The notes below the pieces were generated by a model. It made no database searches and was not told the origin of the DNA. It was given only the letters and a program-made list of their open reading frames with translations. The position numbers and the translations under genes were made by a program. A DNA stretch of 64,000 nt, taken from positions 17,917,869 through 17,981,868 of the forward strand of contig NC_080057.1 in assembly GCF_026212465.1 (NCBI RefSeq). The letters are read 5' to 3'. How positions within the stretch are numbered: the first letter of the stretch is position 1; each line of letters begins with the position of its first letter. Source of the stretch: Amaranthus tricolor. Taxonomy: Eukaryota; Streptophyta; Magnoliopsida; Caryophyllales; Amaranthaceae. Shown piece after piece: positions 2,162 through 62,980 of this stretch.

Positions 2162-2202
2162 GTATAAAGGGAGGGAATTCTAAAAGTAACTCTTTCCAAC
2201 CT
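2162..2202 (+). repeat. 41-bp dispersed repeat, copy 1
   Basis: These 41 bases, beginning GTATAAAGGGAGGGAATTCT, recur exactly at 36300-36340. Copy 1 runs straight into the hairpin array that starts at 2200. In copy 2 the CCTT is followed by unrelated sequence, so copy 2 looks like the empty site. Confidence 0.85.
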
Positions 2203-2324
2203 CACTCTTTAGAGTGAGTTACTGCGTAACCTTAAGCTTCGCTTAAGCTACTACATAACCTTACCCTAACGAGTAAGCAAATAGGAATTACCTGACTCTT
2301 TTGAGTCAGTAAGTAAACTGCCTT
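2200..2324 (+). repeat. Tandem array of four hairpin mini-elements
   Basis: Four hairpins lie head to tail, each followed by a short constant tail and CCT(T), and neighbours share the CCTT. The hairpins are CTCACTCTTTAGAGTGAG, CTTAAGCTTCGCTTAAG, a CCCTAACGAGTAAG form and TGACTCTTTTGAGTCA. The tails are TTACTGCGTAACC, CTACTACATAACC, CAAATAGGAATTACC and a GTAAACTGCC form. The array lies just downstream of the cox1 3' end (minus strand), where it could act as a stem-loop RNA 3' end. Confidence 0.85.
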
Positions 2325-2400
2325 AGAAAAAGAAGAAGTTCTGTTAGGTTCTTAGTTGCTTTTCCTTCGTCTCTTTCATTTTAAAAAGTTTTCTTTGACT

Positions 2401-3978
2401 TTAGCTTTTCGTCTCCTTAATAGCTGGAAGTTCTCCAAAAGTGTGAAAGGCTGGAGGACTTTGTACCATCCATTCCAGTGTGGTTGAATTCTCTTCAACA
2501 GCCCAAGGACTTGGAGCACATCTTTTGTTCTTTCCACTGCTTAAAGTGATTGTTACGATCACGAAGAAACAACAAATCCCAACTACAGAGATATAAGAGC
2601 CAAAACTGCTAAGGGCATTCCATCCTGCGTAAGCATCCGGATAATCGGGAATGCGACGTGGCATACCCGAAAGCCCTAAAAAATGCATGGGGAAGAAGGT
2701 AAGATTAACCCCGAAAAAAGTGATCCAAAAATGGATTTGACCTAAAGTTTCAGGGTATGTTCGACCAAAGATTTTGCCCACCCAATAGTAAAATCCTGCA
2801 AATAAAGCAAAAACGGCTCCCATAGAAAGTACATAATGGAAATGGGCAACCACATAATAAGTGTCATGTAGAGCAATGTCTAGCCCAGAATTAGCCAGGA
2901 CTATTCCAGTGAGTCCTCCTACGGTGAACAAAAAAATAAACCCTACAGCAAATAACATGGGTGTTTTGTATTGTATAGAACCCCCCCACATAGTAGCGAT
3001 CCAACTAAAGATTTTAATTCCAGTGGGGACCGCTATGATCATGGTAGCTGCGGTGAAGTAAGCACGGGTATCAACGTCTAAGCCCACAGTAAACATATGA
3101 TGAGCCCAAACAAGAAATCCAAGAACACCTATACTGATCATGGCATAAACCATGCCTAGATACCCGAAGACCGGTTTTCCGGAAAAAGTAGAAACGATAT
3201 GACTTATGATACCGAATCCAGGCAGAATGAGAATATAGACCTCTGGATGACCGAAAAACCAAAAAAGATGCTGATATAATATTGGGTCTCCCCCCCCAGC
3301 GGGATCAAAAAAGGTTGTATTAAAGTTTCGATCGGTTAATAACATGGTAATTGCCCCCGCCAGTACCGGAAGTGATAATAAAAGTAGGAATGCTGTTACT
3401 AGAACGGACCACACAAATAAGGGTAATCTATGCATAGTCATTCCAGGTCCACGCATGTTGAAGATAGTTGTTATAAAATTGATAGAACCTAAAATGGATG
3501 AAACACCAGATAGATGAAGACTAAAAATTGCTAAATCAACTGCTCCTCCAGAATGGCTGGTAATACCACTTAAGGGCGGATAGACCGTCCACCCAGTCCC
3601 GGTACCCACTTCTACTAAGGCTGAGCTTAATAGGAGCAAGAGACTTGGGGGCAACAACCAGAATGAAATATTATTTAATCGTGGAAATGCCATGTCAGGT
3701 GCACCTATCAGAATTGGAACAAACCAATTCCCAAATCCACCTATCATCGCAGGCATAACCATAAAAAAGATCATTAAAAAGGCGTGAGCCGTTATTAAAA
3801 CATTATAAAGTTGATGATTTCCACCAAGAATTTGGTCGCCGGGGCGTGCTAATTCCATACGAATCAGTACTGAAAAGCATGTGCCCATCACTCCAGCAAT
3901 AGCACCGAAGATGAAATAGAGAGTCCCTATATCCTTGTGGTTAGTAGAGAAAAGCCACCGAACCAGATTATTTGTCAT
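2401..3978 (-). CDS. cox1: Cytochrome c oxidase subunit 1
   Basis: This is the catalytic subunit of complex IV, which reduces oxygen with electrons from cytochrome c at the haem a3-CuB centre in the inner membrane. The 525-residue product starts with [18 protein letters not shown], the family's usual N-terminus. It shows [17 protein letters not shown] and [16 protein letters not shown] with the CuB histidines, and [15 protein letters not shown] with the haem ligands. The C-terminus ends PAIKETKS with TAA at 2403-2401. The frame is continuous, so the mobile group I intron found in many angiosperm cox1 genes is absent. An upstream in-frame ATG would add 47 codons, but the family start at 3978 is preferred. 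Confidence 0.97.
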
Positions 3979-59830: not shown

Positions 59831-60949
59831 AAGCAATCTAGCTATCCTTCATTTGAAAATAACTGTCCTAATAGCGCTTGCTTTACATTCATATAACATC
59901 TCTTATTACAGTGATCACTTAGTGTAAGATCAGAGGATCTAATCAAGGTTAATCCCTGAACTGCTTGCTTTCACTGGATTTACTACAAAAAAAAAAAATA
60001 TGGAGCAGACTTCTCCTTTCTAGAAGACGGGGGAGAGGGCTTTGAATAGCCGTAGCAAGGAGCTAGCTTTCTTTCATCTCAAAAAGAACCCCTACCCTAG
60101 AGCAATAGACGGAATTCGGAATTCTTGGGGTAGCTGCTAGGATAGATGCATAAAATCCGAGAATAGGCGGTTAAGGTAGAAGATATCAAGTCAAATCATT
60201 AGCTTCGGTGAACAAGATAAGAAAAAATTTATCCTCAAAGAAAAAGAAGCAAAATTAAAGAAATTTCATTGCCTCCTCTTTTCTTTATACACAATTATCA
60301 GTATAGTTCCCCACAAGGGATGAAAGCAAGAAAGGCAGTTCGGTAGTTCTCCAACGGGCAAGTCAGTTCCAAGAATGAAAGGGAGTTTTCACTTTGAACA
60401 TATAGGGAAAATAATGGCTTGTACTTGATTCGTTGAAACAAAGAAATAGGCCAGTCGATGACTTGGCTTTCAACTAATCTCCTTCCTTGCCTACGGGATG
60501 TGCACATGAAGAACTCTTATCTAAGTAGTATGCTTTCTAGTTCAAGTAGCAATTCCTGTCTCTGCTTCTAAAGTAAGACGGGGCCTTTTCTCTCCTCCCT
60601 CCCGGTGTCCCCATTAGTTAATATACTAAATTGGAAAAGAATTCCAGGTCATTCAGATTTCAGGTTCGGTTTCGGGGTATAGATGGAATCGAGAGGGAAG
60701 AAAGAGTCCGGTTTCAGAGGCTTGATCAACTGTGTAATCATGGATCATCAAGAAATCCCTAAATGCTTCTTTATACCGTCGCCACGGAAAGGGTTCAGGT
60801 AGGGAGAACTCTTAGATTCTCAAGTTTTATATAGTTTTTCTTAAAATCCATCTCCACCTATGTTGTGTCCTTTCTCCCAAAGCATTCCGGCATCTGTTAT
60901 TCTTGGTCTCGCCCTGTGAAGCAAAGTCGGACATAGAATTAATTGATAG
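59831..60949. other. Spacer without recognised genes
   Basis: No gene was recognised between the gypsy remnant and the second trnC. Confidence 0.45.
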
Positions 60950-61022
60950 GGAACCGTAGCCAAGTGGCTAAGGCATGAGTCTGCAAAACTTCTATTCGTC
61001 GGTTCGAATCCGACCGGTTCCT
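60950..61022 (+). tRNA. trnC2-GCA: Second tRNA-Cys (GCA), trnC2 type
   Basis: The 73-nt cloverleaf has the acceptor stem GGAACCG/CGGTTCC, position 8-9 TA, a D arm GCCAAGTGGCTAAGGC and the anticodon loop CTGCAAA (GCA). The T arm is CGGTTCGAATCCG. It differs throughout from the native trnC at 50713 and from the plastid gene. It fits the extra trnC2-GCA first reported in sugar beet mitochondria, which published work traced to horizontal transfer and showed to be aminoacylated. The anticodon stem has a weak outer pair. Confidence 0.85.
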
Positions 61023-62944
61023 ACAGCGCCATTCTATCAATCATTTTTTTTCATGGTTAGTGGATAGAACAGGGACCCCCGGATCAAAGGTTCAAAGCCG
61101 AAAATTTTTGGAGTGAGACTTTCTTTTTTCAAGCGGCCTGACACAGTAGTTCTTTTTTTCCTCCGTCAGGTCTGCCCCTTCTTTCTATCCTTAATAAGAG
61201 TGTCATCCATAACTTACTTTTTTTTATTTGCCATGCTTCTTGTTGAAAGGAGGAGGTATAAGGCCAAAAAGACTAGTGTGACATAATCTGCCAGCTCTCA
61301 TTCGAGACATAGGATGTCGAATCGGATGGATGGGCTTAATATAACATATAGCTACATCACGCTCGAAAGTGAAAAAATAACTCCCGGGTTCATAAATATG
61401 CCATCTTTTCTCACTTCGATCGCCCTCACTGCCCTTGGTCTCGTTGAAGACGCTCCTTTGTGTCCGACCTTCTCTTTTGGCGTCCTCCTTTCAATCACTT
61501 GATGCCCACTATCAATGACTTATTTAATACTTCCTTATAAATAGGGATATTTTTTTTTACTATAAGCTAAGGCTATTCAAAGCGTGGGCTGAGTGGATAA
61601 TTTTTATAGGAGTGGGACTCTTCTTCGCATCGAGAAAATCTTTTTTTAATCGTTCTTTCCGCGGGTGTGGTTTCTAGGCAAGGAATACTCCATTTTCGGC
61701 TCGAGATAAGAAGTAAAATTTCAAAGAATAGAATGGCTTGAGTGAAAGCTGGAGTGGCACAAGACAGATTGAAAGCAAAGGGAAGGGTCAGCCAGCTTGC
61801 CCTGTCCTTCCTAACTTTCCGAGAGCTTTCCTGACTGGCATTTCAACTGCGCTTGACTAAAAGGAGTTGCCCGGTTCTGATCCTCATTGTACTTGTCTCA
61901 AGCTATTAAAAAGGCAAAAAGGGGAAGAGAGGCCTTCGGAATTCTTTTGAGCGAAGAACGGCATCACCTTGTAACAGAACGTGCCCTCCTACCTAATATG
62001 GCGATAAACGCTGTTTTCTCTCGATCTTCTTCGGCCATCTTGATCTGCGCTTATATCAAGAGAAAGCATCCCGTGTCCAGCAGTCTTGTCCACCAGAACA
62101 TCGATGCGAGGGAAAAGAAAATCATCTTTTTTTTTTGGCTTGCCTTGTTTAGGCTTGGACTTACGGAACCTGCTTTCAATTGAGGCGTCAAAGGCGAAGA
62201 AGCGTAATCATCCATCCTTAACTGGATGCCTTACCCTCCCGGGTGGTTATGGGAGCGGCCTACTTTCTACTTTTTTACTATGGAGCCGGCTACTTTCGCT
62301 CCTCTACCATATTCATTAATTAATTCTTTGGAAGCTAGGCACGTGACTTGATAGCGCAAGCACAAGACAAACAAAGAATAGCAAGACCGCATATCAAAAG
62401 GTTTGGAACCCAAGCTTACTTTTTTTATGAAATAAAGAAGGCGCTGTAAGCGATAGTAGGTGTAGTTCTTTCTTTCCAGCCGGATTCATTAATGCAATGG
62501 AACTCCAGAACTTGAAGAACTGGCCTTGGAATGGAAGGAAATATTTATTCAAATCTAAATCTTTTAGAAGCTGGCATTGCTAGTTGACTTTTATTCGTTG
62601 ACAGCCAGCAGTTGCCGGGAACTAGCCTTCCGCCTAGCTGCCCTGTCTTAGCTAGCCCTTTCAGACTAGCAGACTTGCTTTCTTGTCCTCGGCCTTCAGA
62701 CGGGATGCTCTAGTTGCTGCTGCTTTTAGCCGGAATGCCTTGCTTCGCTCTACAGCTAGTGGAGACAACGACTAATAAGATTGACGACAGGAGAAGACTG
62801 ACGCTTTATGACTTTTCTGTTATTAGACCAATGCTTTTCTTATGTCTGCCATTAGTTTAAGGCTAGTGTAATGGAGGGCTTCCTCACGGGAAGCTTTCTA
62901 GTAAGGGGTGAAACGTCCTGTTTGGCTTTCTTCTTTCTGATTAC
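61023..62944. other. Spacer without recognised genes
   Basis: No gene was recognised. Frames at 61314-61502 and 61887-62183 are unassigned and probably chance. Confidence 0.45.
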
Positions 62945-62980
62945 AAGGGAATTCCTATTCACTTACTTGAATAAGTAAGG
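62945..62980 (-). repeat. Hairpin mini-element
   Basis: All 36 bases are identical to 54307-54342: AAGG, the tail GAATTCCTATTCA, the hairpin CTTACTTGAATAAGTAAG and G. It borders a copia integrase remnant. Confidence 0.88.

Follow-up and report, generated by a model that had tools for sequence, protein, structure and literature searches.

The stretch analysed here (the window) comprises 64,000 nucleotides (nt) of the flowering plant Amaranthus tricolor, C11:17917869-17981868 of a 520-Mb assembly in 45 contigs. It carries the mitochondrial genes cox1, cob, nad2, nad3, rpl5, rpl16 and atp4 together with tRNAs (partly named by eye) and, dispersed in the same DNA, a family of short hairpin units bounded by CCTT, which are the subject of this report. 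Rfam, at its gathering threshold, recognises 8 tRNAs and three group II intron domains in the window and has no match for the units. The first-pass annotation had placed the DNA in a mitochondrial genome; its content is indeed of the mitochondrial type, whereas the window itself belongs to a chromosome-scale scaffold and is no mitochondrial record. Across about 17.59-18.43 Mb of C11 (the C11 block), of which we read 200 kb including 45.4 kb of N and gaps, long segments recur in several near-identical copies (99.98-100%), cob being found four times at 100%. This block is either a very recent giant nuclear integrant or a group of mitochondrial contigs misplaced in the scaffold. Gaps of 100 N are present in it, one of them at 56604-56703.

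Read in the CCTT orientation, a unit consists of CCTT, a hairpin, a tail and again CCTT, the CTT of the first boundary forming the foot of the 5' arm. The hairpin takes up 16-19 nt from this CTT and the tail 9-13 nt, the last of them an A as a rule; the body, that is most of the hairpin plus the tail, measures 24-29 nt between the two CCTT (AAGG on the other strand), the whole unit, boundaries included, measures 32-37 nt, and in chains one unit follows the next every 28-33 nt. Tails fall into the classes A (TACTACATAA), A' (CGACTWCATA), B (AAGTMAACWA), C (GGMATTA) and D (CTCTTCGAA), next to a rarer form (TTACTGCGTAA). Reading the blocks and their flanks by eye, we count about 46 units, whole or partial, spread over 33 blocks (Table 1), close to the estimate of about 43 units at about 30 loci made at first pass, and both orientations occur, as had been stated; a candidate 34th block at 57183-57216 was too degenerate and was excluded. 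CCTT is found at the start of 20 of 25 blocks and at the end of 23, one of the two misses at the end being a coordinate that is off by one base. Chains keep one orientation and share single boundaries, as would be expected if CCTT were both the target and the end of the element. The hairpins had been called near-perfect, which holds for part of the units, while some stems are imperfect.

Is such a plan more frequent than chance would have it? In its loose form, a CCTT with a stem of at least 5 bp from the CTT and a second CCTT 22-44 nt on, it matches 38 times in the window against a mean of 14.6 in 30 dinucleotide shuffles (standard deviation 3.9, maximum 23); with a stem of at least 6 bp there are 25 matches against 5.8 (maximum 16). 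If up to 3 mismatches are allowed, the class-A tail CTACTACATAACCTT occurs 18 times, compared with a mean of 1.71 in 100 shuffles (maximum 5). Most units are recovered by four class profiles, whose matches reach E<0.01 in 15 of 20 cases for class A, 20 of 53 for B, 15 of 48 for C and 2 of 2 for D, the profiles being refined on their own matches and classes B and C overlapping; the partial units at 7640, 58405 and 59741 are weak. The family as a whole is beyond chance. The AAGG/CCTT-bounded hairpin units are real, and a frequency no higher than in shuffled sequence, which the first-pass annotation had named as the result that would speak against them, is not what was found.

In the whole assembly, a strict class-B pattern yields 30 matches (reversed control pattern: 1), 29 of them in the C11 block and one on C15, where the surrounding 601 bp are 99.8% identical to the block and mark a nuclear copy. 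A class-A pattern gives 25 (control: 0), of which 20 lie in the C11 block, two being overlapping readings of one unit. Elsewhere it is found on C9, where the surrounding 3 kb are a copy of the block (99.5%); on C7, where about 278 bp around it resemble the block (98%); on C1, in two stacked units (C1:35258710-35258771, L079) with flanks that match no mitochondrial DNA examined; and on C10, there without a hairpin. The units belong to mitochondrial-type DNA. The C7 copy was considered as an insertion into C45-type DNA and rejected, being a mosaic of C45-like and block-like stretches. A nuclear locus on C3 (L122, C3:19623950-19624500), Copia-gag-like by eye, holds at least two degenerate units and represents either the nuclear counterpart of a mitochondrial locus not seen here or an array of units at another place. 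In viral contigs, two matches to the class-A motif both lack the hairpin plan and were taken as chance; relatives of cob there are at most 66% identical, leaving no plant mitochondrial DNA for comparison in that collection, and a plasmid collection had no match to window positions 2150-2400.

Five pairs of same-class units at different sites have only 0-1 nt in common beyond either boundary; with flanks so unrelated, the units are insertions and not pieces of larger repeats. The contrary possibility, that copies were carried along by larger segmental duplications of mitochondrial DNA, had been foreseen at first pass as fatal to the claim, and the several identical copies of long segments in the C11 block would fit it. 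The 45-nt flanks of 32 blocks, with same-locus C11 copies dropped, nevertheless match non-unit DNA only to the left of 2200 and to the right of 59120, besides a partial match of 31 nt at 24209, apparently the margin of a same-locus copy; all other flank matches are neighbouring units lying within the flank. We therefore regard carriage by duplication as extremely improbable.

Filled and empty sites, which the first pass had recommended seeking, are present at LINE-like and Gypsy-like fragments. The open reading frame (ORF) 43293-43646 resembles, by eye, the start of a LINE endonuclease and contains a class-B unit. From the W of its WN motif to the E of the next conserved motif it counts 40 residues, against 30 in all nine comparators that our script measured (eight are nuclear loci; the ninth is the second LINE in the window, which has a Pfam endonuclease match and LINE-1 ORF2 among solved structures); of 12 nuclear loci fetched, two were without the motif, and two that the script mis-measured (L133, L136) have 30 by eye. 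The unit thus adds exactly 10 codons (+30 nt). One near-identical filled copy of this site exists elsewhere (P0121), and the ORF downstream has many nuclear relatives at about 30%. Direct protein relatives of ORF 43293-43646 in a large database amount to 4 candidates, none of which reaches the unit region; at the DNA level, five chromosomes hold relatives of the LINE region (L123-L127), which represent, by eye, another part of a LINE and offer no empty site, a sixth region (L128) being left out, and C16:7533098, tried as such, was too degenerate.

The Gypsy-like fragment (by eye) at 59500-59730 contains an A' unit and a B unit. Two anchors around them are 92 nt apart as the window stands and 34 nt apart once both units are removed with one CCTT kept for each; the same anchors are separated by 34 nt and 34 nt in the nuclear relatives on C7 and C3, and were not measurable in a third nuclear relative (L117) or in the paralog on C11. 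Removal with one CCTT each restores the nuclear spacing, so that the empty site had room for one CCTT only. The paralog, C11:17784153-17784218, is without the A' unit and has a B unit at the same place, so that the B units of window and paralog stem from either one shared or two independent insertions. A single CCTT at the empty site is found, by length, for three insertions (one LINE-like, two Gypsy-like), and at these three sites insertion adds 28-33 nt, that is the body plus the second CCTT. With units lying in nuclear-type retroelement fragments, the nuclear genome of the same plant shows the empty state, and these fragments therefore allow a direct test of how a mitochondrial mini-element chooses and duplicates its target and when it inserted.

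Could the hairpins be regulatory or RNA-processing structures under selection, at transcript ends or in tRNA or intron processing, and not mobile DNA? Some have a gene nearby: cox1 at 77 nt, tRNA-Asn at 11 nt and tRNA-Cys at 38 nt. Such a role is hard to reconcile with units inside retroelement-like fragments, with their occurrence in both orientations and with chains of differing classes. Moreover, an ORF runs antisense to tRNA-Cys for which, its own copy aside, there are 58 relatives (of those inspected, the three that are named are plants). Of these, 43 align to residue 108 or beyond and none past 123; all 43 extend to the site and lack a unit there, and the window departs from these relatives at or just after the left CCTT of 50615-50675. 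We consider a regulatory function very improbable. The statement that units never lie in exons of working genes agrees with our finding that all 33 blocks lie clear of the genes placed (9 gene segments, 8 tRNAs), a gene list that is incomplete and partly named by eye; among 10,000 random placements, 0.81% were equally free of overlap.

The outer boundaries could be placed in 25 of the 33 blocks, and in 18 of these the base before the left CCTT is T, compared with 263 of the 781 other CCTT in the window (p=1e-4); adding 14 more blocks of C11 brings the count to 29 of 39 (p=2.5e-7). Pyrimidines make up 74.5% of positions -8 to -1 against a background of 53.7%. The preferred target is a pyrimidine-rich TCCTT. 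The CCTT common to chained units, in contrast, is usually preceded by A and not by T, and the left boundary therefore appears to derive from the target and the right one from the element. Orientation follows the target strand, and units stack head to tail.

Among units, hairpins are reshuffled with respect to tails while the CCTT boundaries are fixed, which bears out the description of a modular, boundary-defined family. Two of 23 exact hairpins tested carry two different tail classes each (CTTAATGCTTTGCATTAAG with tails A and B; CTCACTCTAACGAGTGAG with tails TTACTGCGTAA and B), and tail B and tail C each stand behind several hairpins. Covariation was assessed on 22 chosen hairpins of one length (20 distinct), other lengths being left out, against 500 shuffles. 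Stem cells are paired in 90.7% of cases versus 86.2% after shuffling, two-sided stem cells number 8 versus 2.9, and the covariation score is 0.161 versus 0.073; no shuffle of the 500 reached any of these three values. The clearest covarying pair, columns 4 and 17, is T-A in 10 hairpins, C-G in 4, T-G in 2, G-C in 1 and unpaired in 3. Covariation of this kind could also arise via palindrome correction during replication.

We conclude that the units are very probably non-autonomous mobile mini-elements of mitochondrial DNA that insert at CCTT and come to have CCTT on both sides. A putative enzyme acting in trans would open the target at CCTT and would recognise the hairpin in a single-stranded copy of the unit, made of DNA or RNA. 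The body would then be joined at the opened CCTT, the 4-nt duplication being due to a staggered cut or else to the terminal CCTT of the unit pairing with the AAGG of the target, and recombination between copies would later shuffle hairpins and tails. The same products are expected from a staggered cut with 4-nt fill-in, from single-strand transfer and from target-primed copying of an RNA ending in CCUU. Single-strand transfer that uses one tetranucleotide as both target and end is known from IS200/IS605-type elements.

Several points weigh against this conclusion. Chance accounts for nearly two-fifths of the loose-plan matches, and the target preference was measured only where outer boundaries could be placed. 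In the stems, covariation at a slide of -1 is nearly equal (0.147 versus 0.161), pairs with two-sided change number 3 versus 1.7 (a level seen in 15 of 500 shuffles), additional types of pair number 5 versus 3.7 (64 of 500), and the innermost, loop-adjacent pair is open in 9 of 20 hairpins. ORF 43293-43646 has no Pfam match, the names LINE and Gypsy being given by eye; when the flanks of 32 blocks were joined and compared with the window, with 200 kb of C11 and with a few loci, a single empty-site match was returned, the Gypsy-like paralog; and the trnC-antisense comparison fixes the left edge only, the right flank being unmatched. No candidate for a mobilising enzyme was recognised, with Pfam covering 10 ORFs only. 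Finally, an exact 41-nt repeat (2162-2202 and 36300-36340) stops at a unit boundary with unrelated DNA on its right side, as repair-driven copying would also have it.

Plant mitochondria repair their DNA by microhomology-mediated and template-switching routes, and hairpins might have been copied by these into double-strand breaks at AAGG/CCTT, a repair hot motif, with no dedicated mobility. Besides the 41-nt repeat, an exact 47-nt inverted copy (6730-6776 and 20833-20879), which starts mid-unit and includes a whole second unit, and the C7 nuclear copy, a mosaic joined beside a unit, speak for such patches. However, the length change at the LINE-like and Gypsy-like sites is exactly a unit plus one CCTT, and a defined substrate is suggested by the fixed boundaries, by the covarying stems and by a preference at the target that goes further than CCTT. 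A repair origin is conceivable but, on balance, unlikely compared with mobility. The 41-nt repeat and a further exact one, of 60 nt (36056-36115 and 59125-59184), end at or 4 nt from unit boundaries, and the ends of recombination may coincide with units.

How do these mobile units relate to known elements? Excerpts of two studies describe Bpu elements as 36 nt long with AAGG ends, in 486-504 copies in Cycas and about 100 in Ginkgo (PMC8297867, PMC6971862). The likeness extends to size (36 nt versus 32-37 nt here), to AAGG at both ends and to many dispersed copies per mitochondrial genome. Folded in the AAGG orientation, the consensus given there (PMC8297867) adopts the same plan, AAGG-tail-hairpin-AAGG, the hairpin ending at the second AAGG as it does here, which for Bpu follows from our folding of the published consensus; on the opposite strand it folds less like our units. 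Its first 8 nt, AAGGTTAT, are identical to class A. The first pass had granted the Cycas elements a similar size and a different sequence: the consensus is indeed unmatched (no window match within 3 mismatches of the 36-bp Cycas or Ginkgo form), while the relation is closer than this wording suggests, the plan being the same and AAGGTTAT common to class A. Aligned over the whole length, class A scores above 99% of shuffles against Cycas Bpu (p 0.009, before correction for 14 comparisons) and p 0.066 against Ginkgo Bpu, the other six unit forms ranging from p 0.02 to 0.55 against Cycas; none stands out firmly after allowing for the 14 comparisons. The Bpu10I-type recognition site is CCTNAGC. 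Whether in this form or as printed in PMC8297867 (CCTGAAGC), the site is present in just 2 of the 33 blocks, in the 6745 unit and its 20833 copy. With the consensus unmatched and the site so rare, we do not file the family as Bpu. One sequence dominates there and several hairpin and tail classes coexist here; the hosts are Cycas and Ginkgo there and a flowering plant here.

The proposal that such a family is undescribed in angiosperms was too strong for elements of this kind. Palindromic repeated sequences (PRSs), to go by the title of a 1994 paper by Nakazono, are reportedly found in rice mitochondrial DNA, with recent insertion inferred; judged by this title alone the likeness lies in dispersed palindromes of an angiosperm mitochondrial genome. 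Yeast GC clusters, in the passages at hand, are very similar in behaviour, with a single-copy target at element-free sites and shuffling, and differ in being GC-rich, in a 2-3-nt boundary and in host kingdom, and no sequence relation is claimed (PMC4478555). The hairpin elements of sponge mitochondrial DNA and the organelle palindromes of Volvox are short, intergenic and at times nested or in tandem, as here; they belong to other lineages, and the passages at hand describe no fixed 4-nt target duplication (PMC2800124, PMC2670323). Miniature mobile hairpin DNA is known chiefly from cycads, yeast and sponges, and flowering plants have been little studied for it. A literature search of partial coverage, with most subscription papers outside it, found no angiosperm family with these boundaries.

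It is a tentative idea, and one we would not yet favour, that the cycad, ginkgo and present angiosperm families form one AAGG-targeting lineage, moved by a seed-plant-wide mitochondrial insertion activity that recognises TCCTT plus a hairpin; the rice PRSs may belong to it too. If so, an ancient transposition system would persist in plant mitochondria, served by an unrecognised enzyme encoded in the nucleus. In the excerpt, repeat-family expansion in plants is reported for Bpu alone, a picture that a second AAGG-bounded family, in an angiosperm, would change (PMC6971862). Units are predicted in other angiosperm mitochondrial genomes, where repeat searches with a 50-bp floor, as in the excerpt of PMC8297867, would miss them.

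Table 1. Blocks of CCTT-bounded hairpin units in the window, by position and strand.
Positions	Strand	Units	Remarks
2200-2324	+	chain of four, differing classes; tails TTACTGCGTAACC, A, C, B	single CCTN boundaries shared
6706-6776	+	chain of two, class A	first atypical; 6730-6776 is exact 47-nt inverted copy of 20833-20879
7640-7670	-	B/A fragment	degenerate, weak (profile E 0.05)
8976-9009	+	class-A tail	hairpin CTTAATGCTTTGCATTAAG; same hairpin with B tail at C11:17771785
10646-10679	-	class B	
12489-12525	+	class A'	tail CGACTTCATA
19075-19106	-	class D	
19499-19534	+	class C	
20833-20952	-	chain of four	A-type tails
21263-21300	+	class-B tail	irregular hairpin
21582-21614	+	class A	
22023-22060	-	class A	partial
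24209-24242	-	class B	CCTC boundary paired by GAG of other arm
24610-24643	+	B/C	partial
30072-30106	-	class B	partial
33221-33254	-	class A'	
35602-35638	+	class C	upstream of cob
38863-38896	-	class B	
43355-43388	+	class B	in LINE-endonuclease-like frame (ORF 43293-43646), +10 codons; filled site
47665-47762	+	chain of three: B, C, C/B-like third	
48923-48956	-	class B	partial
50615-50675	-	chain, class D and class A	tRNA-Cys 38 nt away
51211-51242	-	class A'	
51948-52012	+	chain of two, B-tailed	end 11 nt before tRNA-Asn
54124-54156	-	class A	
54307-54342	-	class C	identical to 62945-62980, flanks unrelated
54882-54915	-	class B	
58405-58460	+	class-C units	partial, weak (profile E 0.03-0.04)
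59087-59120	+	class B	
59590-59621	+	class A'	in Gypsy-like fragment; absent from paralog C11:17784153-17784218 and nuclear relatives
59642-59675	+	class B	same Gypsy-like fragment; nuclear relatives on C7 and C3 lack it
59741-59803	+	chain of two, A-tailed	degenerate, weak (profile E 0.05 and 0.8)
62945-62980	-	class C	identical to 54307-54342

Just beyond two different units of the catalogue, the minus-strand stretches 24185-24207 and 50592-50614 are alike (ACAGTCGAGYTACTWCGTWCCTC) and perhaps represent a further degenerate A-type unit. A 451-residue ORF at 40015-41370 looks, by eye, like the RNA polymerase of linear mitochondrial plasmids and has no Pfam match. Nuclear-type fragments within the mitochondrial DNA (Copia-like, LINE and Gypsy-like, partly named by eye) occupy 24768-33852, 41615-44334 and 59500-59730, and the Copia-like one contains a 63-nt tandem duplication at 27665-27790 whose copies are 86% identical.

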